Assembly (NCBI RefSeq): GCF_015714725.1
Contig: NZ_WBKM01000179.1
Location: forward strand, 1-64,000
Source of the DNA: Nostoc sp. WHI
GTDB taxonomy: Bacteria > Cyanobacteriota > Cyanobacteriia > Cyanobacteriales > Nostocaceae
Direction: 5' to 3'
Length of the DNA stretch: 64,000 nt
Shown here: in pieces, positions 6,227 through 17,534 of the stretch
How positions within the stretch are numbered: position 1 is the stretch's first letter
Layout: every line of letters begins with the position of its first letter
Translations under genes and position numbers: made by a program
Notes under the pieces: model-generated
The model's database searches: none
The model's input: only the letters and a program-made list of their open reading frames with translations
What the model was told of the DNA's origin: nothing

Positions 6227-6559
6227 CTATGAAAAGCCCAACCAACACCGCAAAGATTGCTCTAAAAGTTCAGCATCATCATCAGCTAACTTACCAATCA
6301 CTTTGACAACTAAGCTTTTATGCACTGTGTATAAACCTCTCTTGACTGCTGTAGCCACGTTTAGCCCTGCTGCTGCCCATTCAGACAAGACAAACTCACC
6401 TTCTAGCAATGCTCCAGTTTTGCTCGTCAAGGGCGTGATTAAAATGTCTTGAGAAACGTGTGGCACACTTACAACAACAGCAGGTCTAACTTTTGAACTG
6501 GACAAATCTGAAAAAGGATACTGAACCAAAATGATGTCATTTTTAGAGTAGTTCGGCAT
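6227..6559 (-). CDS. MazF/PemK-type toxin
   Basis: Read from the ATG at 6559 this is a 110-residue PemK/MazF-like protein: NDIILVQYPFSDLSSSKVRPAVVVS (Arg25-Pro26 of the family's conserved RPAVV motif), ILITPLTSK, and a C-terminal helix DAELLEQSLRCWLG. Family members are usually ribosome-independent mRNA interferases. The frame stays open to 6637, but the 6559 start gives a normal N-terminus and a 17-bp overlap with the antitoxin gene, typical of translationally coupled toxin-antitoxin pairs. The antitoxin comes first in the operon. Confidence 0.88.
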   Translation of the reverse strand: MPNYSKNDIILVQYPFSDLSSSKVRPAVVVSVPHVSQDILITPLTSKTGALLEGEFVLSEWAAAGLNVATAVKRGLYTVHKSLVVKVIGKLADDDAELLEQSLRCWLGFS

Positions 6560-6761
6560 AGACATCATCCTCAGCGTTATCCCAAACTGATGAGAGTGAT
6601 GTTTGACTGGTTTGAAACCAAAATTCAGTTTCATCATCAGGAAGCAGCGTCACTAACACTCTTGTCCCTTCCGGTAATTCCTCTGACTCCAGCAATTCAA
6701 TTTTTCCTTCCCTAACAGTAGCCCAAAGCGTTTTTAGCATATCTGTTTTATGAATAGTCAT
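6543..6761 (-). CDS. antitoxin of the MazF/PemK-type pair
   Basis: The 72-residue protein has the pattern W-A-T-V-R-E-G-K-I-E-L-L followed by LPEGTRVLVTLLPDDE and an acidic tail ending WDNAEDDVYAELL. I recognise this as the common cyanobacterial antitoxin partner of PemK/MazF toxins; the C-terminal acidic segment is expected to occlude the toxin. It starts the operon and overlaps the toxin gene by 17 bp. Such antitoxins often repress their own promoter; I did not identify an operator. Confidence 0.85.
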   Translation of the reverse strand: MTIHKTDMLKTLWATVREGKIELLESEELPEGTRVLVTLLPDDETEFWFQTSQTSLSSVWDNAEDDVYAELL

Positions 6762-6960: not shown

Positions 6961-8181
6961 TTATCTATTATTCTTATTAGTTCTTTTCTCTTTATACTGA
7001 ATACCCATAACTTTGTCTTCTTGTTTAATGAAATAATCATGATTAAAAGAGTAAATTTCCAATCTATCTTCATAGATAACGTGAAGATGATTTTCATACC
7101 TAATTGAACGAGGGTAAACTCTCCAACGAACTACAGGCTCATAAAAATTTATAATTTTTTGATCGCTACATAAAACAGTTAATGATTCATCATATTCTAC
7201 AATCACGCCAAAATAAGCAGTGCCAGCACTAATTACTTTACCTGTAATTGAATCATTTGAAAAATTTTCCAACAATGAAAAAGCATCTTGATTATCATTA
7301 GAGACTTTTGACTGGGTGTAGTGAACAACATCAATACTATTAGTATTAGCCATATAGATTTTCTCTTGGCAACCCCAGCTAAAACCTGATTTTTGAAATA
7401 CTTCTGTATCAGGAATGATTCTTTTAAAACCCCTATTTCTGCTTTCGATATTACTGCTTTTATTGTTATCCCAGCCAAAAGCTGCAAGAAAGCCTGAGGA
7501 AACATAAGAGGAAATATATAAGCTTGCAAAAGCCCAATTTACTAACGAAGAATGCCTATCACTAACTCTGTAAACTTTGTTATCAACTTCTTCAAGACCA
7601 AGTGATTCAATTCCATAGCTATAGTTATTAAGATGTAGTTCAAAAGCACCTTCATCTCCTGCTGCCATACCTATGGTATTTTTTGATGCACTAATTGATA
7701 AAAGCGGACAATCCCACAGTTTTTGAGAACGTGTACTAACACCATATTTTGTATGCTGACGGTGAATAGCACTAGCAATTAAGCCCGAATCGGTAATCAC
7801 AAACAAGGTGTTATTATAAATTTCTGTATCAGTAGGTAAATCATTAGCAATATTATCCTGTCTGGAATATTCAAATTTTCTTAGTTTTTTATTTGATATT
7901 AACAAATTTTTAGCTGATAACTTTTTAATTTTTTTTAAAAGTAGATTTTTAATTTCTGAATCATTTAATATCGGCTGGTTATTTAGCTTATATAAATAAT
8001 CACCTTCTATAAAAGCACTTTTTACAAGAATATCATCTATTTGATCCTTAAAAATTGAACTGATGATGTCATCCCAACGATACACACCTACAGAACCATC
8101 CATATACCACAAATAAAGCCGATTTCTATATATTTGACAATCCCAAAAGTCACCTTCAATTATGAGTTTTAAAGGTTGCAT
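6961..8181 (-). CDS. unrecognised protein, possible beta-propeller
   Basis: I do not recognise this 406-residue protein (426 if read from 8241). I choose the ATG at 8181 (MQPLKLIIEGDFWDCQIY) because it overlaps the upstream gene by 13 bp, implying coupling. The sequence shows recurring short beta-type blocks, for example YRNRLYLWYMDGSVGVYRWD, ETEIYNNTLFVITDSG-like, ISAGTAYFGVIVEYDESLTVLC and RYENHLHVIYEDRLEIYSF. This would suit a propeller or repeated sheet domain. There is no signal peptide, transmembrane segment or catalytic motif that I can name. It is A+T-rich (many Asn, Lys and Ile codons) compared with core genes, which fits horizontal acquisition. Confidence 0.6.
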   Translation of the reverse strand: MQPLKLIIEGDFWDCQIYRNRLYLWYMDGSVGVYRWDDIISSIFKDQIDDILVKSAFIEGDYLYKLNNQPILNDSEIKNLLLKKIKKLSAKNLLISNKKLRKFEYSRQDNIANDLPTDTEIYNNTLFVITDSGLIASAIHRQHTKYGVSTRSQKLWDCPLLSISASKNTIGMAAGDEGAFELHLNNYSYGIESLGLEEVDNKVYRVSDRHSSLVNWAFASLYISSYVSSGFLAAFGWDNNKSSNIESRNRGFKRIIPDTEVFQKSGFSWGCQEKIYMANTNSIDVVHYTQSKVSNDNQDAFSLLENFSNDSITGKVISAGTAYFGVIVEYDESLTVLCSDQKIINFYEPVVRWRVYPRSIRYENHLHVIYEDRLEIYSFNHDYFIKQEDKVMGIQYKEKRTNKNNR

Positions 8182-8597
8182 TGTTTCCCACTCCGTATTT
8201 TTGTGATATGATGCTTGGCGATTATTCCGTCGTTTCTCCAAATTTGCAAAATTTTTGTAGAAGGTCTATCTTGTTGATTGTTCTGGTAGTCAGCAGGATG
8301 GCCATGCCACTCTTTAGTTTGACTATCATCTCTAAATTTGGCTATTTTTAAAGGTTCTTGTAATAGCGATAAACCAATTTGTTCTAATTTACCTATTTGA
8401 TTCTGCTTAATTCCCCAACCTGTTTTTTCCTCCAACCAACCTTTTGAAAGAGCTAATTGAAAACAAGTAATTTCTTCATCTTGTGTAATAGTCCATATAG
8501 ATTTGTTAGGATTTCCACTTCTTCTATGAGAAGGGTTGATTTTATAGGATATTTCCTTATTATCTGTTTTCAAAGAAGCATTACCATTAAAAGTCAT
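8169..8597 (-). CDS. unrecognised small protein with WHGHP motif
   Basis: This 142-residue protein is the first gene of a two-gene unit with the 406-residue protein; the two frames overlap by 13 bp. I do not recognise a named family. Distinctive features are WTITQDEEITCFQLALSKGW in the middle, EWHGHPADYQNNQQDRP near residue 100 and the basic tail IWRNDGIIAKHHITKIRSGKQC. Loss of the His/Trp-rich block in homologues would argue against a catalytic role. Its position among toxin-antitoxin and defence-like genes is the only hint about function. Confidence 0.6.
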   Translation of the reverse strand: MTFNGNASLKTDNKEISYKINPSHRRSGNPNKSIWTITQDEEITCFQLALSKGWLEEKTGWGIKQNQIGKLEQIGLSLLQEPLKIAKFRDDSQTKEWHGHPADYQNNQQDRPSTKILQIWRNDGIIAKHHITKIRSGKQCNL

Positions 8598-8916
8598 TGA
8601 GAATTACACTCTATTAATTAAATGGTATGCGTAAAATTACTATGTAATTGCTTTTAATAACGTATAATTTATTATAAATTAACAAAAATAGAGCAAACTA
8701 ATGCTCTGTCATAAATAGAAAAATAAATGACTATCCTGGGTTGTACAGTTATATTGTGTTTTATTTAGATACACCATTAATGAATCTCTTTCTTCCTTTG
8801 TGCCTACCCTACGGGAACGCCTAATGACGAATGCGTGAGATTTAAAAATTTGGTTCATTTACATGAAAATTTCTGTAAATTTCAATTATTCAAAAAATAA
8901 TTCTTCACAATTTCTT
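8598..8916. other. gene-free stretch
   Basis: A+T-rich intergenic DNA between the unrecognised module and orphan higA. It contains a short Nostoc-type repeat fragment (CCTACGGGAACGCC and nearby, about 8811-8840) and, from 8885, the start of the segment duplicated at 12783. I see no gene. Confidence 0.6.
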
Positions 8917-9304
8917 CTAAACCAATGTCATAACTTGCTCATATTCTTCTTTATGGCTTTGCAAAGCATCCCAAAGATCAACTTTTTGCTGAAGATTAAG
9001 CCAAAGTCTTGGGCCATTTCCTAAAGCTTTACCAAGACGTATTGCTATATCTACTGTAATTGAGCTTTGACCATTAATAACTTCCTGAATTGTTTGATTA
9101 GATACTCCTAAAATATCTGCAAAATTTGCGGTATTAATATCTAAATCATCTAAAATATCTGCAATTACTTCGCCAGGATGTATTGGTTTTACTAATCTAT
9201 CATCAGTAATATCTTGCCAATTATCCATAATTAATACTTCTTACTTAATAATTTGGTTAACCTTATTTAGCATTGTCTAGCCCATCAATATCATATTAAC
9301 GCAG
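8885..9304. repeat. left copy of duplicated higA segment
   Basis: About 420 bp colinear with 12783-13202 at a constant offset of 3898 bp, with only scattered substitutions. It spans the 3' flank, all of higA and the higA-higB intergenic region, and stops where the higB gene should begin. The higB position is occupied by xisHI. Confidence 0.9.
8917..9228 (-). CDS. higA: HigA-type antitoxin, orphan copy
   Basis: The 103-residue protein is a HigA-family antitoxin: N-terminal IHPGEVIADILDDLDI, then the XRE-type helix-turn-helix TANFADILGVSNQTIQEVINGQSSITVDIAIRLGKAL and a C-terminal LWLNLQQKVDLWDA. It is nearly identical to the protein at 12815-13126. Unlike that copy it has no higB upstream; xisI and xisH sit there instead. 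It may still bind DNA or cross-neutralise the HigB encoded 4 kb away (inference). Confidence 0.9.
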   Translation of the reverse strand: MDNWQDITDDRLVKPIHPGEVIADILDDLDINTANFADILGVSNQTIQEVINGQSSITVDIAIRLGKALGNGPRLWLNLQQKVDLWDALQSHKEEYEQVMTLV

Positions 9305-9357: not shown

Positions 9358-9693
9358 CTAACTCACTGCATATTCTGTAAACTGTCTCATAAAAGGAGAC
9401 TGAAAACCTAACACAATGTCTTCCTTGGGAACTCCCGCAGCTACCAAATTAGCTGCAATATCATCTTCTGTACCATTCCACTGAAGCCAAATTTTCCCAT
9501 TTTTAATATCAATATGAATAATACAACTATGTACCCAGTCTTGACCTTCCCACCCTACATGAACTATTTGATAATGGTCACGTTCTGGATCAAAAATTGT
9601 TTCAACTTCTATGTTGCCGTTAGCTGGTTTTTGCTCACTATAATCATGTAATATCTGTTGTACAAGCTGGCGATATCGAGTTAATTTATCCAT
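9358..9693 (-). CDS. XisI-family protein
   Basis: This 111-residue XisI-like protein (MDKLTRYRQLVQQIL, FDPERDHYQIVHVGWEGQDW, IVLGFQSPFMRQFTEYA) is encoded directly after xisH, with a 13-bp overlap that implies translational coupling. It differs considerably from the XisI at 5825, so the two are not recent duplicates. In Anabaena PCC 7120 XisHI assist fdxN element excision; the pair is widespread in cyanobacteria without such elements. No recombinase gene of the XisF type is present in the window. Confidence 0.92.
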   Translation of the reverse strand: MDKLTRYRQLVQQILHDYSEQKPANGNIEVETIFDPERDHYQIVHVGWEGQDWVHSCIIHIDIKNGKIWLQWNGTEDDIAANLVAAGVPKEDIVLGFQSPFMRQFTEYAVS

Positions 9694-10100
9694 TGGAAAA
9701 TCACCTCTTGCTCTACATCATAGATCAGCATTTTAACTTGATTTTCTGCTATCATCTCTTTGGGGAAATCAAGTTGAAAAAATGTTTTATAAGTTGTTAA
9801 AGGTACTGCTAAATACAAAACACGCTCCGGTTGCCGCCGTCGTAATGCACCTCTATAATTAATAAACTGTCCTAATGCTGTATGAAATTCTGAAATAGCA
9901 GACGACCTCTCTAAAAAACTTTTGACTTCGACTGCAATTTTTTGTCCTTCACGTTCTGCTGCAATCAGCTTTTGGGCGGCTAAATCAATCGAAAGGTTAA
10001 CTCCTCCCAAGCTCATTGTGAGTGGATCGTGAGTAATTTGCCAACCATCTTTGTGTAAAGCTGTTTTGACAACTTCATGAAAGACATGTTTAGCAGACAT
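9681..10100 (-). CDS. XisH-family protein
   Basis: The 139-residue protein starts AKHVFHEVVKTALHKDGWQITHDPL and contains LSIDLAAQKLIAAEREGQKIAVEVKSFLERSSAISEFHTALGQF. The D...E-V-K spacing is that of a PD-(D/E)XK nuclease-like core, which the XisH family is known to resemble. The rest (YLAVPLTTYKTFF) also matches XisH. It is the first gene of the xisHI pair, inserted between a duplicated higA segment and a bchH 3'-end fragment, in place of higB. Confidence 0.92.
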   Translation of the reverse strand: MSAKHVFHEVVKTALHKDGWQITHDPLTMSLGGVNLSIDLAAQKLIAAEREGQKIAVEVKSFLERSSAISEFHTALGQFINYRGALRRRQPERVLYLAVPLTTYKTFFQLDFPKEMIAENQVKMLIYDVEQEVIFQWIN

Positions 10101-10214: not shown

Positions 10215-10429
10215 TTATTCAATCCCTTCAATCCGGTCTTCAACTTCTTGGTACAACTCGCGCAGACGATCTAAATTCTCGTCGCTAGTCTTTCAATAAC
10301 AGCGTCCATTCACTTCCAACAAAGTTGATACAATCTTGCGGAAAGAATGGGGATTGAGGTTCAGCAACCGTTTCTGCATTTCTTCATCTTTGATGAAGGT
10401 TTCGTTAGTATCCTCATAAATCCAGTTAT
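10215..10429 (-). pseudogene. bchH 3'-end fragment (dead copy)
   Basis: This stretch is colinear, without net insertion or deletion, with the last 71 codons of bchH at 13548-13762 and differs by about a dozen substitutions. It keeps a stop codon (TAA instead of TAG), but a Trp codon in the GYWETSEDN region has become TGA (10293-10295), so it cannot encode the C-terminus. Homology ends abruptly at CCAGTTAT. With the higA copy to its left it forms the left half of a duplicated higA-to-bchH segment. Confidence 0.9.
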
Positions 10430-10540
10430 AGCAGTGGACAAAGCCGTTAGGACAAGTCGGCGGTAGACACCTTCAACAAGCGTACATTGTGAATTGATTT
10501 TTGTCCTAAGCTTCCTGTCCGTTGCTATATCTATAGCGCC

Positions 10541-11007
10541 AATGGAAGAGTGAGCGATCGCCTTGCAGAAAACCTTAAAAATAAGGCGTAGACGCGTAGC
10601 GGCTTGTCGTTAGACATCGCCTGTTGTGGAAGAGTGGTGCGTTAGCGTAGCTCACCGTAGGTATCGCCTTTCAGAAAAGCTCAAAAATAAAAGCGATCGC
10701 TTGTTGTGAAAGAGTAGTGCGATCGCTTTGCAGAAAACGTCAAAAATAAAGCGATCGCTTGTTATGGAAAAGTGTGCGATCGCCTTTCAGAAAACCTCAA
10801 AAACTAAGCGATCGCTTGTATGGAAGAGTGAGCGCGATCGCCTTGCAGAAAAACTCAAAAACAAAGCGATCGCCTTTATGGAAGATGTGCGATCGCCTTA
10901 CAGAAAACCTCTAAAATAAAGCGATCGCCTGTTGTGGAAGAGTTAATGCGATCGCCTTGCAGAAAACCTCAAAAACAAATGTTGTGAAGGAGTGAGCGAT
11001 CCCCTGT
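10541..11007. repeat. tandem array of HIP1-bearing units
   Basis: About seven and a half degenerate copies of a unit of roughly 57 bp. Each unit reads GGAAGAGTG, a HIP1 octamer, CTTGCAGAAAACCTCAAAAA, a few A/T bases, a second HIP1 octamer and TTGTTGT. The first two copies carry further small Nostoc repeats (GCGTAGACGCGTAGCGG and similar). The units are similar throughout with no unique spacers, so this is not a CRISPR array. Open frames through it are repeat artefacts. Single copies lie at 5735 and 6795. Confidence 0.9.
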
Positions 11008-11031
11008 TATAGTGATATTCACAGCAAGTCC

Positions 11032-11613
11032 CTAAGTTTCAGCAAGAATTGCATCTCTGATTATTTTAATATTCATTTGTAAATCTTGCTCTAATTCATT
11101 AGAAATTTTTTTCATTTTACCGAATAAATTATCATAACCGTCATTTAAGGATAACTCATAATAACAACTATAAAGTTTATCTATATCAAGAGAGTTATCA
11201 ATATTACTATCCCTTTCTTCAAGTCTTCTTTTCACCTCTTTCTTAGAAGCGCTAATTAAAAATGTCATTGTTGGGCAGACAATATTCATTTTTTTGATAA
11301 TATTGAGCATTAAATCATTATTTTGAGGATTAGCCAAATCTACATGAGTGATAAAAGTAGAATATATGAATCTATCAATCACATAAATTTTATTTTCGTC
11401 AGCCGTTTTTACAAAGTAACTATTTGAACAAATAAAGAATATAAATCTTTCAAAAATATCAGCATCCCAAAAATCTTTTATCATGCTTGTAAATGGACTG
11501 ACTGGGGATTTAATAAATTCAATATTGCTTTCATTTTTTAAGTCCTCTTTCAGATTTTGCCAAAGAGTTGTCTTTCCCGAACCATCAATTCCCTCAAAAA
11601 CTATTAGTTTCAT
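11032..11613 (-). CDS. thymidylate-kinase-like nucleotide kinase, viperin partner
   Basis: The 193-residue protein is a P-loop nucleoside-monophosphate kinase of the dTMP-kinase superfamily. Walker A is GIDGSGKTT (residues 8-16), the substrate/magnesium DR motif is VIDRF (Asp80-Arg81), and an Arg-rich lid KKEVKRRLEERDSN follows near residue 130. A housekeeping tmk would not be expected here and the protein is A+T-rich and divergent. Its position 110 bp downstream of the viperin gene, on the same strand, recalls the CMPK2-viperin pairing in vertebrates and the kinases found beside some prokaryotic viperins. Inference: it raises the NMP/NTP substrate for viperin. The exact base preference cannot be read from sequence. 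Confidence 0.85.
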   Translation of the reverse strand: MKLIVFEGIDGSGKTTLWQNLKEDLKNESNIEFIKSPVSPFTSMIKDFWDADIFERFIFFICSNSYFVKTADENKIYVIDRFIYSTFITHVDLANPQNNDLMLNIIKKMNIVCPTMTFLISASKKEVKRRLEERDSNIDNSLDIDKLYSCYYELSLNDGYDNLFGKMKKISNELEQDLQMNIKIIRDAILAET

Positions 11614-11627
11614 GTTTATAAAGCTTA

Positions 11628-11728
11628 TATAGCGGCGTGCAGTTGAGTGAGATACAAAAACAAAAACTTGGCTGAAATGATTTTACAGTAGGGACTTTGG
11701 TGTTCTCATTGAATCGATAACCGCTATA
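11628..11728. repeat. small inverted-repeat element (MITE-like)
   Basis: A 101-bp element bounded by TATAGCGG (11628-11635) and CCGCTATA (11721-11728). It fills almost the whole gap between viperin and the kinase, and the viperin stop codon lies within its right end. No target duplication is evident and I see no second copy in the window, so mobility is inferred from symmetry only. Confidence 0.5.
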
Positions 11729-12569
11729 ATGATATATATCTTTGATTGAATTTAATTTTATCAAATACAATTTGCTCAAAAGCTTTTTCAGTCCCTTGCT
11801 CCAAAATCCTCTCACTATAGATATAACCTTTATCATTTTCCGAGTTTTGATAAAATCTTCCCAAAGGATCAATCATAATGTAGGACTCTCTCATATCATC
11901 ATTATTCTCAGCAAAAACAAGTGTGCCTACTTTTTTATAATGAGTTTCTATAAAGTACTGATACTGCTCGTCGGTAATTCCAATTGTGTTGGGTTGGATA
12001 GGTAAAACTTTAAATATTTTCCACCTATCAGGATTAAGTTCATTGATTGATATGCTCATGTCCTCTTGCCAATTATGTCTATTGACTACAGTATTGATTT
12101 TTAATTTGCAGGGTAGTTTATTCAATTCTTCTATAAACTGTCTTATGTTATAATTGGGTTTATTTTTTGTATATCGCCCTATTTTGTGATTAGTTTCTGA
12201 ATTAAAAGAATCGATGCTTATCCCTACCATTGATATTTTTTGAAATAAATTACTTATTAAACTCGCTTTTAGAAGACTACCATTTGTGATAATGGATACT
12301 TCATAGCCAATATATAAAGCAATATCAACTATGTCAATTAAGTTTGCAACGAGAAGAGGTTCCCCTCCAGCAAAATTTAATCTAATAGATTTGAATGATT
12401 TTCTAAAATACCTGAATACATCCTCCAACATTAACTTCACCGAATCAACATTTCGATGTAATTCAGTGTTAAATTTTTCTTCAAGCCCATATTTGGCAAA
12501 ACAAAACTCACAAGAGTAATTGCAACGTTCTGTTAAATGATAATTTATAACCAAATTTCTCATATCCAT
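11724..12569 (-). CDS. prokaryotic viperin (radical SAM, ddhNTP synthase-like)
   Basis: The 281-residue protein aligns by eye with vertebrate viperin through most of its length. It has NYHLTERCNYSCEFCF with the radical-SAM Cys triad C16, C20, C23; LNFAGGEPLL (GGEP, residues 68-71); VSIITNGSLL; GISIDSFNSETN with HKIGR; then KINTVVNRHNWQEDM, LNPDRWKIFKVLPI and the ESYIMIDPLGRF block. These are viperin-specific, not just radical-SAM, motifs. Viperins convert a nucleoside triphosphate to its 3'-deoxy-3',4'-didehydro form, a chain terminator active against phage in bacteria. The usual RGG-x-Y/W tail is missing; the protein ends FNQRYISL where an inverted-repeat element begins. The nucleotide product is not predictable here. 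Confidence 0.92.
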   Translation of the reverse strand: MDMRNLVINYHLTERCNYSCEFCFAKYGLEEKFNTELHRNVDSVKLMLEDVFRYFRKSFKSIRLNFAGGEPLLVANLIDIVDIALYIGYEVSIITNGSLLKASLISNLFQKISMVGISIDSFNSETNHKIGRYTKNKPNYNIRQFIEELNKLPCKLKINTVVNRHNWQEDMSISINELNPDRWKIFKVLPIQPNTIGITDEQYQYFIETHYKKVGTLVFAENNDDMRESYIMIDPLGRFYQNSENDKGYIYSERILEQGTEKAFEQIVFDKIKFNQRYISL

Positions 12570-12782
12570 TTTTAGGAACCCCTAACTTAGCGCTTAAGTT
12601 CTTTTTAAGCTTTACACTTTAAGTATTCCCACAAATGAATCTGAATTAGCGATCTAATTAAACCTTTACATAAGTTTACACAGTTCGGTTTAATTGTGTC
12701 TACCTACTTACAACTTGCGTAGGCAATCCAAATTATCGCCGCTAGTCTAATGTGCCTCATACGTTATTGGTTATGTATAAAC

Positions 12783-13202
12783 ATTATTCAAAAAATAATT
12801 CTTCACAATTCCTTCTAAACCAATGTCGTGACTTGCTTATATTCTTCTTTATGGCTTTGCAAAGCATCCCAAAGATCAACTTTTTGCTGAAGATTAAGCC
12901 AAAGTCTTGGGCCATTTCCTAAAGCTTTACCAAGACGTATTGCTATATCTACTGTAATTGAGCTTTGACCACTAATAACTTCCTGAATTGTTTGATTAGA
13001 TACTCCTAAAATTTCTGCAAAATTTGCGGTATTAATATCTAAATCATCTAAAATATCTGCAATTACTTCGCCAGGATGTATTGGTCTTACTAATCTATCA
13101 TCAGTAATATCTTGCCAATTATCCATAATTAATACTTCTTACTTAATAATTTGGTCAACCTTATTTAGCATTGTCTAGCCAATTAAGATCATATCAACAC
13201 AG
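12783..13202. repeat. right copy of duplicated higA segment
   Basis: Direct repeat of 8885-9304 (constant 3898-bp offset, no net indels). In this copy the segment runs on into an intact higB and then bchH, so it appears to be the ancestral arrangement. Confidence 0.9.
12815..13126 (-). CDS. higA: HigA-type antitoxin
   Basis: This is the 103-residue HigA antitoxin (XRE-type helix-turn-helix, IHPGEVIADIL start) of the intact pair with the HigB encoded 79 bp upstream. Toxin-first order is the usual arrangement for higBA. It differs from the orphan copy at 8917 by only a few residues (for example R versus K after DRLV, and AEIL versus ADIL). HigA proteins neutralise HigB and repress the operon promoter. 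Confidence 0.92.
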   Translation of the reverse strand: MDNWQDITDDRLVRPIHPGEVIADILDDLDINTANFAEILGVSNQTIQEVISGQSSITVDIAIRLGKALGNGPRLWLNLQQKVDLWDALQSHKEEYKQVTTLV

Positions 13203-13205
13203 GAC

Positions 13206-13484
13206 TTAATGATAATCTTCAAGATTGACATCATAAGCATTACCATCTTCAAACCTAAAAGTTATACGCCAGTTTGCTGATACCTTAATTGACCAAGTTC
13301 CTTTCCTGTCTCCTTTTAATTCATGTAAATCATAACCCGGTAATTTAATATCTTCTACAATTAACGCTGAGTCTATAACTTCAAGTCTGATTCTAATTTT
13401 CTTTTCTAAGTTTACAGGAACTCCTTTATTAAAATTTTCTCTAAATAAATTTTCTAATGCTTTCTTTTGAAATGTTTGAATCAT
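13206..13484 (-). CDS. higB: HigB/RelE-type toxin
   Basis: The 92-residue protein fits the HigB branch of the RelE superfamily: an N-terminal helical part, PGYDLHELKGDRKGTWSIKVSANWRITFRF with the basic and aromatic residues used for ribosome-dependent mRNA cleavage, and a short acidic tail. It is the first gene of the higBA operon, located between bchH and higA on the same strand. In the duplicated segment at 8885-10429 this gene is absent and xisHI takes its place. Confidence 0.92.
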   Translation of the reverse strand: MIQTFQKKALENLFRENFNKGVPVNLEKKIRIRLEVIDSALIVEDIKLPGYDLHELKGDRKGTWSIKVSANWRITFRFEDGNAYDVNLEDYH

Positions 13485-13547
13485 TTATATTTCATTTTTT
13501 AACCTTATCTCGTTGTTAAGGCAGGCTTTATGCCTGCCTATGTATTC

Positions 13548-16500
13548 CTATTCTATCCCTTCAATCCGGTCTTCAACCTCTTGGTACAACTCGCGCAGAC
13601 GATCTAAATTATCCTCGCTAGTCTCCCAATAACCGCGTCCATTCATTTCCAACAAAGTTGATACAATCTTGCGGAAAGAATGGGGGTTGAGATTCAGCAA
13701 CCGCTTCTGCATTTCTTCATCTTTGATGAAGGTTTCGTTAGTATCCTCATAAATCCAGTTATCCACAGCGCCAGCAGTCGCACTCCAACCTGTTGTATTC
13801 ACCAACCGCTTGGAGAGTTCGCGCACACCTTCGTAACCGTGAGATAGCATCCCCTCGTACCATTTGGGATTTAACAACTTAGTACGCGCATCCAAACGCA
13901 CGGTTTCTGATAATGTCCGCACTTGGGCGTTAGCTGTGGTTGTATCTGCAATATAAGATGCTGGTTTTTTACCATCACCGCGTAGACTTGCCACAAGCTT
14001 AGTAGGATCTGAATCAAAATAGTGGGAAACGTCCGTTAAGCTAATCTCGGAAGAATCGAGATTTTGGAAAGTTGCATCAGCAGTTTTCAATGTACTTTCA
14101 AAAATCTGCCGGGATTCGTCCATGATTCCGGGGTTATCGGAATTGAAAGAGAAGGATTTTCGGTTGAGATACATTTCCTGCAACTCGGCTTCGCTATCCC
14201 AAGTGCTGTTTTCTACCGCCAAGTTGATATTTGACGAGTAGGAACCAGAAGCATTGGAAAAGACGCGTGTCGCTGCTTGACGCAGATTAATCCCCATTTC
14301 TTCAGCTTGTTGCAAAGCGTGTTTGCGAACAAAGTTCATATCTAAGGGTTCATCCGCCTCAGCTGCCATTTTCACCCCTTGGTCTAGCAGGTTCATTTGA
14401 TTGATGAACAAGTCGCGGAAGACACCGGAACAGTTGATTACTACATCAATTCTGGGTCGTCCCAACTCTTCTAGAGAGATCAATTCCAATTTGTTCACCC
14501 GTCCCAAGGCATCGGGAACCGGACGCACGCCCACCATCCACATAATTTGTGCTAGGGATTCGCCGTAAGTTTTGATGTTATCGGTTCCCCAGAGGACACA
14601 GGCGATGGTTTCTGGCCATTTACCTTCGTTTTCTGACTTATTGCGGATTAAAAGCCTGTCTACGACGATTTTGGCTGATTGGATTGCTGCTGTTGTTGGG
14701 ATGGATTGCGGATCTAAAGCATGGATATTCTTACCCGTGGGCAATACATCAGGGTTGCGGATGGGATCACCACCAGGGCCAGGTAGGATGTACTGGCCTT
14801 CTAAGCCTTTGAGTAATGCTCCTAGTTCGTTGTCGGCACAAACTTGCTGGAGGCAGAATTCCAAATACTCAAATAGGGGTTTGAGTGTGGCTGTGTCAAC
14901 TTTGGGATAACCTGCTTTATGCAATGATTCTACCCAAGGCTCTTTTTTCCCCATGTTGAAGAAATTCAACCGGGAAACTAGAGAAACTCGCCCTTCTGCG
15001 TCGATTTGCTCTTGGACAAGGGCGCTAACTGCTGCACGGGTTGCCAAGGTGATATCTTGCAATAACTGGACATCTTCTAAAATGCCTCGATCGCTAGTTT
15101 GGTAAATATCGTCAATGTTACGCCCAATGCTGTTAGCGATAATTCCCGGCAAGCCTTGAAGTCCTTCTTCCTGACGATCTAGACTAGCAATGTTCACCAG
15201 AGTTGCGATCGCTTCTTCTGCACTTGGCGGTTTACCAATGACGTGCAACCCACAAGGCAATAACCGCGACTCAATTTCCATCAACTTGCGGTAGACGTTG
15301 CCAACAATATTATCGCGATCGTCGGCACTCATGTCTCTGGCATCGGTTTCTGGCAGGTTAATATCCTTATCCAGATTCACGATCCGGCATTTATCCATGA
15401 TGCTGTTGACAATGGAAACACCGCGTCCACTATCTTTTAAGGTTTGGTAGGAAGCAATCAACTCGCTGAGTTCCTTCAAACCTTTATACAAACCTGCATT
15501 TTCTGCCGGCGGTGTCAAGTAAGAAATTGTTTCGGCATAACTCCGACGTTTGGCAATTGTCGCCTCACTCGGATTATTCGCTGCGTAGTAATACAAGTTG
15601 GGAATTGAGCCAATTAAGTTATCTGGATAACAATCACCAGACATCCCCATCTGTTTACCTGGCATGAATTCCAAGGAACCATGTGTACCAAAGTGCAGCA
15701 CTGCATCAGCTTTCCAAACTTGCTCTAGGTAAGTGTAGTAGGCAGCAAAACCGTGGTGAGGACTCGCTGAACGGGAGAATAACAGCCGCATCGGATCGCC
15801 TTCATAACCAAATGTGGGCTGTACACCGATGAAGACGTTACCAAATTGCTTACCATAAATCAGCAGGTTTTGCCCGTCGCTGTTGAGATGTCCGGGAGGT
15901 GGGCCCCAGTTTTCTTCTAAACGTTGAGAGTAAGGGGTCAGTGCCTCATACTCAGGAACCGACATTTTATAAGCAACGTTGAGTTCAGGGCTGTTGTACT
16001 GCGCTTGGGCGTCGTGGATGACTTCTTGCAGCAGCGCTTCGGCAGATTCTGGCAATTCTGGCAAGTCGTAACCGTTATTTTTCATTGCTCTCATCACCTC
16101 GTAGATGGAGCCGAATACATCCAAGTAAGCGGCGGTTCCGACGTTGCCTTTATCTGGCGGGAAGCTGAAAACGGTGATGGCAACTTTTTTATCCAGCTTC
16201 GGCTTGCGGCGGAGGTTAGCCCATTTTAAGGCGCGTTCGGCCACAGTTTCAACCCGATCGCGCAGTGCGATCGCTTTCCCTGTTATCCCATCCCTACCTG
16301 ATAATACAATCGGCTCAATTGCCCCATCCAATTCGGGAATTGCAATTTGCAAAGCTACTTGAATTGGATGTAACCCTAAATCGCTATCCATCCACTCTTC
16401 TGTGGTTTGGAAAACTAAGGGTAATGCCACCATGTAAGGACGGTTTAACCGTTTGAGCGCCTCAATTGCTTTGGGATGATCTTGTCTGGCTGGGCCACCT

Positions 16501-17534
16501 ACTAAAGCAAAACCAGTCAGCGAGATCACTGCATCTACTAACTGTGTGTTGGTATTTGGTTCGTAGAAGTAGGCATCCACAGGTTTGGAGAAATCCAAAC
16601 CACCGGCAAAAACAGGTAATACCCGTGCGCCTAGTGCTTCCAACTCTTGCACCATTGCTACATAATGGGCATCATCCCCTGTCACTAGGTGAGTGCGTTG
16701 CAATACTAATCCAACACAAGGAGCTAAGGGATCTTTGAGATCATTAGAAATATCCTTGCGAGATGTATACCAATTGAGGTACTCTCTAACATCCTCAAAC
16801 ATATTGGGAGCCAAAGGATGCCAAATCCCTAAATCGGGATAAACCACCGGCTGTTGATATGTAGAAGGTGCAAAATTTTGTTTCTCTAAACCTTTAAATA
16901 CGTATTTATCAGCTAGCATCAACAAGAAGTTTTCCAGGTTTTCTGGAGAACCACCTAGCCAATACTGAAAACTGAGCATGAAATTTCGGGCATCCTGTGC
17001 TTTTTCCATTGGTAGGAACTTCAGCACTTGCGGTAGTGTTCGCAAAAGCTTTAGCATCCCATCTTGGAATCCCGCACCTGATTTTTCTTTACGTTTCCGC
17101 ATGAATTGCGCGATCGCACTTTTTGACTGACCCAACTGTGCTAGAGAAAAGCTGCCCATTTTACTTAGGCGCATGACTTCTGGCATGGAGGGAAAGACAA
17201 CGGAAACGTCTAGATGCTCGCGGTGTGGTTCTACTGCTGCTACTACTTTCTGTGCTAAGTCTTCGATGAAAATGAGGGAAGCGATGAAGATATTCGCACT
17301 CTCAATTTCTCGTTTGAACTCCTCATAGTTCTCTGGGTCGCGGAGTTCCTCAATCAAGTACCCACTAATTTCAATCGCCAAGTTAGGATTGTTCGCGTTA
17401 ATCGTGCGAACAGCTTGCGACAATGCACTCTGGTACTGAGACTCTAGCACGACATAGACCACCTTGATTAAATTACGTCCGCGTAAGTCATCAGGCGCAA
17501 TGTGTCTAATGGTGGACTTGACGTGTGTGAACAT
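13548..17534 (-). CDS. bchH: magnesium chelatase subunit H
   Basis: The large (1328-residue) porphyrin-binding subunit of magnesium chelatase inserts Mg2+ into protoporphyrin IX with subunits I and D, committing it to chlorophyll. The length and blocks such as [22 protein letters not shown] (N-terminal domain), [22 protein letters not shown] (near residue 620) and [22 protein letters not shown] (near 1035) are characteristic of BchH/ChlH of the CobN/BchH family. The start at 17534 begins the usual N-terminus. It is monocistronic or leads into higBA, 63 bp downstream. Its last 71 codons are duplicated as a pseudogene at 10215. Confidence 0.97.

Follow-up and report, generated by a model that had tools for sequence, protein, structure and literature searches.

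Bacterial viperins are described, as a class, as making ddhCTP, ddhUTP or ddhGTP, and some of them make two or three of these products (PMC10732462). The vertebrate viperin gene, RSAD2, is adjoined by CMPK2, which is described as upstream of viperin (PMC12889620, PMC10058120). Knockdown of CMPK2 did not lower ddhCTP in one study (PMC12889620), and thus a kinase need not be rate-limiting. Viperins that lie beside kinases or are fused to them are also a known kind among prokaryotes, for which PADLOC models exist (PDLC02904 and, for the fusion, PDLC02905).

Here, we analyzed a 64,000-nucleotide stretch of DNA from Nostoc sp. WHI (the window), in which a viperin gene is followed on the same strand by the gene of a thymidylate-kinase-fold enzyme, which we call type A (Table 1). 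We propose that the two genes form a horizontally acquired anti-phage module with ddhCTP as its most likely product, and we give this reading a probability of roughly 0.68. By gene arrangement, the pair can be likened to RSAD2-CMPK2, where viperin also lies beside a nucleoside monophosphate kinase (PMC12889620). It resembles the PDLC02904 systems in carrying a kinase gene beside viperin on the same strand, but its viperin gives a slightly better score with the PADLOC model of viperins that have no associated kinase (309.3 versus 298.8 bits), and its kinase, which sits downstream, belongs to a type that few genomes show. The locus provides an intact viperin-kinase pair from a filamentous photosynthetic host. 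The family and predicted fold of the viperin, the fold of the kinase, its loss of two dTMP-kinase residues, the viperin linkage and the insertion at chlH are computed results.

Table 1. Features of the viperin-kinase locus and its surroundings (positions in the window)
Feature	Position	Strand	Remarks
PemK/MazF-like toxin	6227-6637		Pfam-positive
HigA-like antitoxin, copy 2	8917..9228	-	Pfam HTH_3, 30.4 bits; no HigB beside this copy
XisI	9358..9693	-	Pfam XisI
XisH	9681..10100	-	Pfam XisH; native neighbor of the displaced chlH end
chlH 3' end, second copy	10216..10429	-	214 bp, one in-frame stop; interpreted as the former chlH end, now displaced
Array of 58-bp units	10663..10979	.	5.5 copies (Tandem Repeats Finder); between kinase and chlH remnant
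Thymidylate-kinase-fold nucleotide kinase (type A)	11032..11613	-	193 aa; 110 bp downstream of viperin
Viperin (radical-SAM nucleotide dehydratase)	11724..12569	-	281 aa, intact
Region upstream of viperin	12570..12782	-	Presumed promoter; between viperin start and end of HigA repeat block
HigA-like antitoxin, copy 1	12815..13126	-	Repeat block with copy 2; named by its place beside HigB
HigB-like toxin	13206..13484	-	Pfam HigB-like_toxin, 63.3 bits
chlH (magnesium chelatase large subunit)	13548..17534	-	Intact; Pfam CobN-Mg_chel, 1253.8 bits; 3' end is the insertion site

Identity of the viperin

That the 281-residue protein is a viperin is supported by its family model, by comparison of structures and by a tree. 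It matches the NCBIfam model NF038283 ("viperin family antiviral radical SAM protein") at 314.3 bits (6e-94, cut-off 180) over positions 2-280 of 281, and the PADLOC pVip model at 309.3 bits; the NCBIfam MoaA models give 50-63 bits, against cut-offs of 231-325. The protein carries the cluster motif CNYSCEFC (CX3CX2C) at residue 16, GGEP at residue 68, KINTVVNRHNWQEDM (KINTVVN, the NxVVN motif) at residue 157 and DRWKIF (the WK motif) at residue 181, and its residues N159, V161, V162, W183 and K184 do not vary across 24 viperins. These are the features of described prokaryotic viperins (pVip, NF038283, SAND), and its predicted fold likewise ranks first with viperins. When solved structures were compared with the predicted fold, 11 of 11 viperin entries outranked other radical-SAM folds. 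Mouse viperin structures are 30-33% identical to the window protein, and the UTP-bound and CTP-bound forms match its predicted structure equally well. A sequence search of the PDB at E 0.001 gave 14 matches, the top nine being viperins or viperin-like enzymes, although several of these are named viperin only via the titles in the structure comparison.

In a tree rooted on MoaA from the same genome, MoaA forms a very long branch outside the 71 viperin rows and the window clade is nested among viperins (row L010, a frame without the cluster motif, was left out). The first-pass annotation had read the protein as a viperin and not as a generic radical-SAM enzyme, from motifs that are indeed present, and the profiles, the tree and the predicted structure all bear this out. 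In fact, the family models and the fold ranking rule out a generic radical-SAM or MoaA identity, and a truncated viperin or pseudogene is ruled out by the open reading frame and the full-length profile match.

Close relatives are few. Only five proteins at least 75% identical to the window viperin were found in the search, the next best being 49% identical, and a viperin match of any kind occurs in 9 of 217 genomes of the family. The remaining Nostocaceae viperins are 35-38% identical to that of the window, whose clade is distinct from them. Viperin relatives that are 36-39% identical and almost full length also occur on contigs classed as viral (L116-L119).

The adjoining kinase and its partnership with viperins

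A dTMP-kinase-like gene beside viperin and on the same strand had been noted at first reading. The adjacency holds, and so does the broad family: Pfam Thymidylate_kin (PF02223) matches at 46.7 bits (cut-off 27), and all 50 PDB rows listed for the predicted fold are thymidylate kinases. However, the NCBIfam dTMP kinase equivalog TIGR00041 scores 51.9 bits, under its cut-off of 83.25. An ordinary housekeeping thymidylate kinase (Tmk) can be ruled out, given that the genome's own Tmk sits on another contig. No terminator-like site was found between positions 10900 and 12850, the stretch that holds the viperin and kinase genes.

A single-sequence search with the kinase across 5.8 billion database entries found seven homologues, six of them at 62-98% identity. 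A profile search added one at 54% (P0128); among the other new rows listed, those aligned over most of the length show 29-33% identity. In the annotation of its relatives, the names "deoxynucleoside kinase" and "thymidylate kinase" are used. Ten pattern matches in viral contigs included no relative by tblastn, phages gave no match, and plasmids gave a single one, a recorded dTMP kinase that aligns with 43% of the kinase at 34% identity.

What sets the kinase apart from bacterial Tmk, with which it has the fold, P-loop, DR[YF] motif and LID arginines in common, is its nucleotide pocket: the base-pocket Arg is lost, and Thr and His stand where Tmk has Tyr and Gln. In mycobacterial Tmk, the pocket Arg contacts thymine and the Tyr blocks the 2'-hydroxyl. 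In all 57 control Tmk, from cyanobacteria and the class of genome G805 (59 fetched, two not extracted), the aromatic helix residue is soon followed by an Arg, and the Asp of the DR motif by a Tyr nine positions on. All nine type-A kinases lack both; in the window kinase, no Arg occupies either candidate position, 63 or 64, and T89 takes the place of the Tyr. An earlier count against 113 similar canonical enzymes placed the lost Arg at N64, and the broader 57-enzyme control placed it at S63. Since these alignments disagree, we limit the claim to a loss of Arg, which the alignments make firm for type A, and do not extend it to an Arg-to-Asn change. Asn 64 itself is unvaried in the 19 kinases counted (nine type A and the ten type B described below). 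If the mycobacterial residue roles hold, type A would have come to favor a ribonucleotide and disfavor thymine.

Where does this kinase occur? The type-A profile matches 3 of 386 cyanobacterial genomes (that of the window, G238 and G696), each time directly downstream of viperin. An adjacent co-directional kinase is thus kept across divergent viperins: that of G238 is 45% identical to the window viperin, and in both G238 and G696 the two genes overlap by 4 bp. Moreover, three of the six closest kinase homologues lie on contigs as long as those of close viperin homologues, and probably share a contig with them. A single clade of type-A-linked viperins was neither shown nor rejected (p-AU 0.136), and a single clade of all cyanobacterial viperins was weakly rejected (p-AU 0.033); long branches are flagged.

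In seven of the eight other Nostocaceae loci, viperin is preceded, at a distance of about 29-70 bp, by a different kinase of 202-211 aa (type B); the eighth, in G083, has no kinase. Type B is annotated "deoxynucleoside kinase" in two records. Its profile matches 3 of 194 cyanobacterial genomes, all three times beside viperins, and G805 is its sole match in 229 genomes of the G805 class. Relatives of type B also adjoin Vibrio and Pseudoalteromonas viperins, which form a separate viperin lineage. All ten type-B kinases lack the pocket Arg and retain the Tyr. In the kinase tree, where long branches meet, types A and B form separate clades (98/93 and 99/98), and L073 from Marinomonas groups with type A at 90/89. 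This kinase of Marinomonas sargassi (L073:7191-7793), a third type found downstream of viperin, also lacks the canonical Arg; it is not among the 19 kinases of the pocket count.

Overall, a kinase accompanies 10 of 12 cyanobacterial viperin loci (8 of 10 without the window and G696, which was found through its kinase), 1 of 8 other plasmid loci and 3 of 80 proteobacterial loci, the latter being the best 80 of 414 confirmed. Among the P-loop ORFs of the proteobacterial loci, those of L073, L083 and L084 were kept; the others, such as one in L059 that resembles APS kinase, did not look like nucleotide kinases by eye and were dropped. The difference between 10/12 and 3/80 (Fisher p = 2.4e-9) is indicative only, because the loci are related, the 80 are nonrandom and some contigs end near the gene. 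The 77 proteobacterial loci without a kinase imply that viperin can do without one. Still, the kinase neighbor does not look incidental, judging from its genomic distribution, and the early suggestion that the pairing is meaningful is upheld by a kinase family found only directly downstream of viperins, in three of three cases among the 386 genomes. The viperin literature searched contained no description of the type-A kinase or of the parallel pairing, the primary prokaryotic viperin papers lying outside this search; a text search for VakA with viperin gave only papers that are unrelated, judging from titles and abstract openings.

Proposed function and its alternatives

In the mechanism we propose, the viperin, relying on SAM and a [4Fe-4S] cluster, would dehydrate a ribonucleoside triphosphate (CTP being the most likely one) at its ribose, and the resulting 3'-deoxy-3',4'-didehydro nucleotide would bring the RNA synthesis of a phage polymerase to an end. 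The best-supported product is a ddh-pyrimidine nucleotide. The kinase encoded on the same strand would be a thymidylate-kinase-fold enzyme re-tuned away from dTMP, and could either raise the substrate pool or re-phosphorylate the ddh-monophosphate, in the way proposed for CMPK2 and viperin in vertebrates. We infer the catalysis, the identity of the nucleotide, the role of the kinase and phage defense from these comparisons; CTP, the weakest step, is a putative substrate chosen from the vertebrate parallel. The same module could work as proposed but make ddhUTP or ddhGTP, or a mixture, which we consider somewhat unlikely: the bacterial viperin class includes makers of both (PMC10732462), mouse structures with UTP and CTP fit the window viperin equally well, and the pocket Asn could, we reason, serve uracil as well as cytosine, whereas the kinase fold points, weakly, to pyrimidines over purines.

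It is quite improbable that the kinase beside an active viperin is only a supernumerary dTMP or deoxynucleoside kinase riding the same mobile DNA. The thymidylate kinase fold, the annotations of its relatives and the 110-bp gap in the window, in place of a tight overlap, would all suit such a passenger. However, in the 386 genomes type A is found only beside viperins, the genome has its own Tmk elsewhere, the pocket residues differ in nine of nine, and other Nostocaceae show the same partnership with a different kinase. A metabolic rather than defensive role for the radical-SAM enzyme has a slimmer chance still, even though isopentenyl pyrophosphate is among the other substrates proposed for viperin homologues (PMC8124187) and the SAND paper cautions against presuming antiviral function (PMC9642334). 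The patchy occurrence of viperin in the family, the defense-type cargo that relatives carry at the same site and a relic in G139 that suggests loss (both described below) fit an accessory defense function and not a housekeeping one. For the anti-phage module that we favor, the altered kinase pocket would offer a direct handle on the nucleotide used by a kinase-linked viperin, and the presence of two different kinases next to the viperins of cyanobacteria suggests that nucleotide supply or rescue is a real functional need.

The insertion at chlH and its surroundings

The second copy of the chlH end is 94.9% identical (203/214) to positions 13549-13762 of the window. In G119, an intact chlH continues into the sequence past the window's remnant (1644 bp at 95.2%), and the same junction is found over 1119 bp in G133 and G115. 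Given these junctions, the most plausible reading of the remnant is a former chlH end, which was displaced when about 3.33 kb, consisting of a fresh chlH end, HigBA, viperin, the kinase and the repeats, was inserted. The only ORFs of at least 100 aa in this insert are viperin, the kinase and HigA, and thus no integrase is evident.

A second chlH-end copy occurs in at least 6 of 53 genomes of the genus, that of the window included, and by these comparisons the 3' end of chlH seems to be a hotspot for insertions in Nostoc. Of ten cargo ORFs selected from relatives at this site, eight are Pfam-positive (TIR, GIY-YIG, C5 methylase, GmrSD with Schlafen, T5orf172, DndB, PIN and Uma2), and five of the nine compared with PADLOC match its defense models. 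In G139, 201 bp covering the start of viperin and upstream sequence (L220:1778-1978) lie beside a chlH remnant and are 99.5% identical to window positions 12467-12667, which suggests that viperin was lost from this genome. The cargo downstream of the chlH end also differs among Nostoc genomes, being of defense, toxin-antitoxin (TA) or XisHI type (window 10216-13762; L217-L221; L227).

Tentatively, and at well under even odds, we envision a broader picture in which at least two different enzymes of thymidylate-kinase fold became partners of cyanobacterial viperins, with the genes in opposite order and the dTMP-reading Arg lost from both. These would be dedicated (ddh)pyrimidine-ribonucleotide kinases, parallel counterparts of CMPK2, and the Nostoc pair would be exchanged via a hotspot that lies at the 3' end of chlH, bears defense-type cargo and duplicates the gene end. 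The chlH 3' end is a place to seek further defense cargo in Nostoc.

The initial description of the surroundings as TA-rich is borne out: HigB and PemK/MazF are Pfam-positive and two near-identical HTH proteins are present. XisH and XisI, encoded nearby, are not a TA pair. The two HTH proteins are the HigA-like genes, which lie in 420-bp blocks (12783-13202 and 8885-9304) that are 96.9% identical, HigB being beside one only. XisHI is contiguous with the chlH end in G119, G133 and G115. A 426-aa ORF at positions 6961-8241, without a Pfam or PADLOC match, is conserved in pieces in G138.
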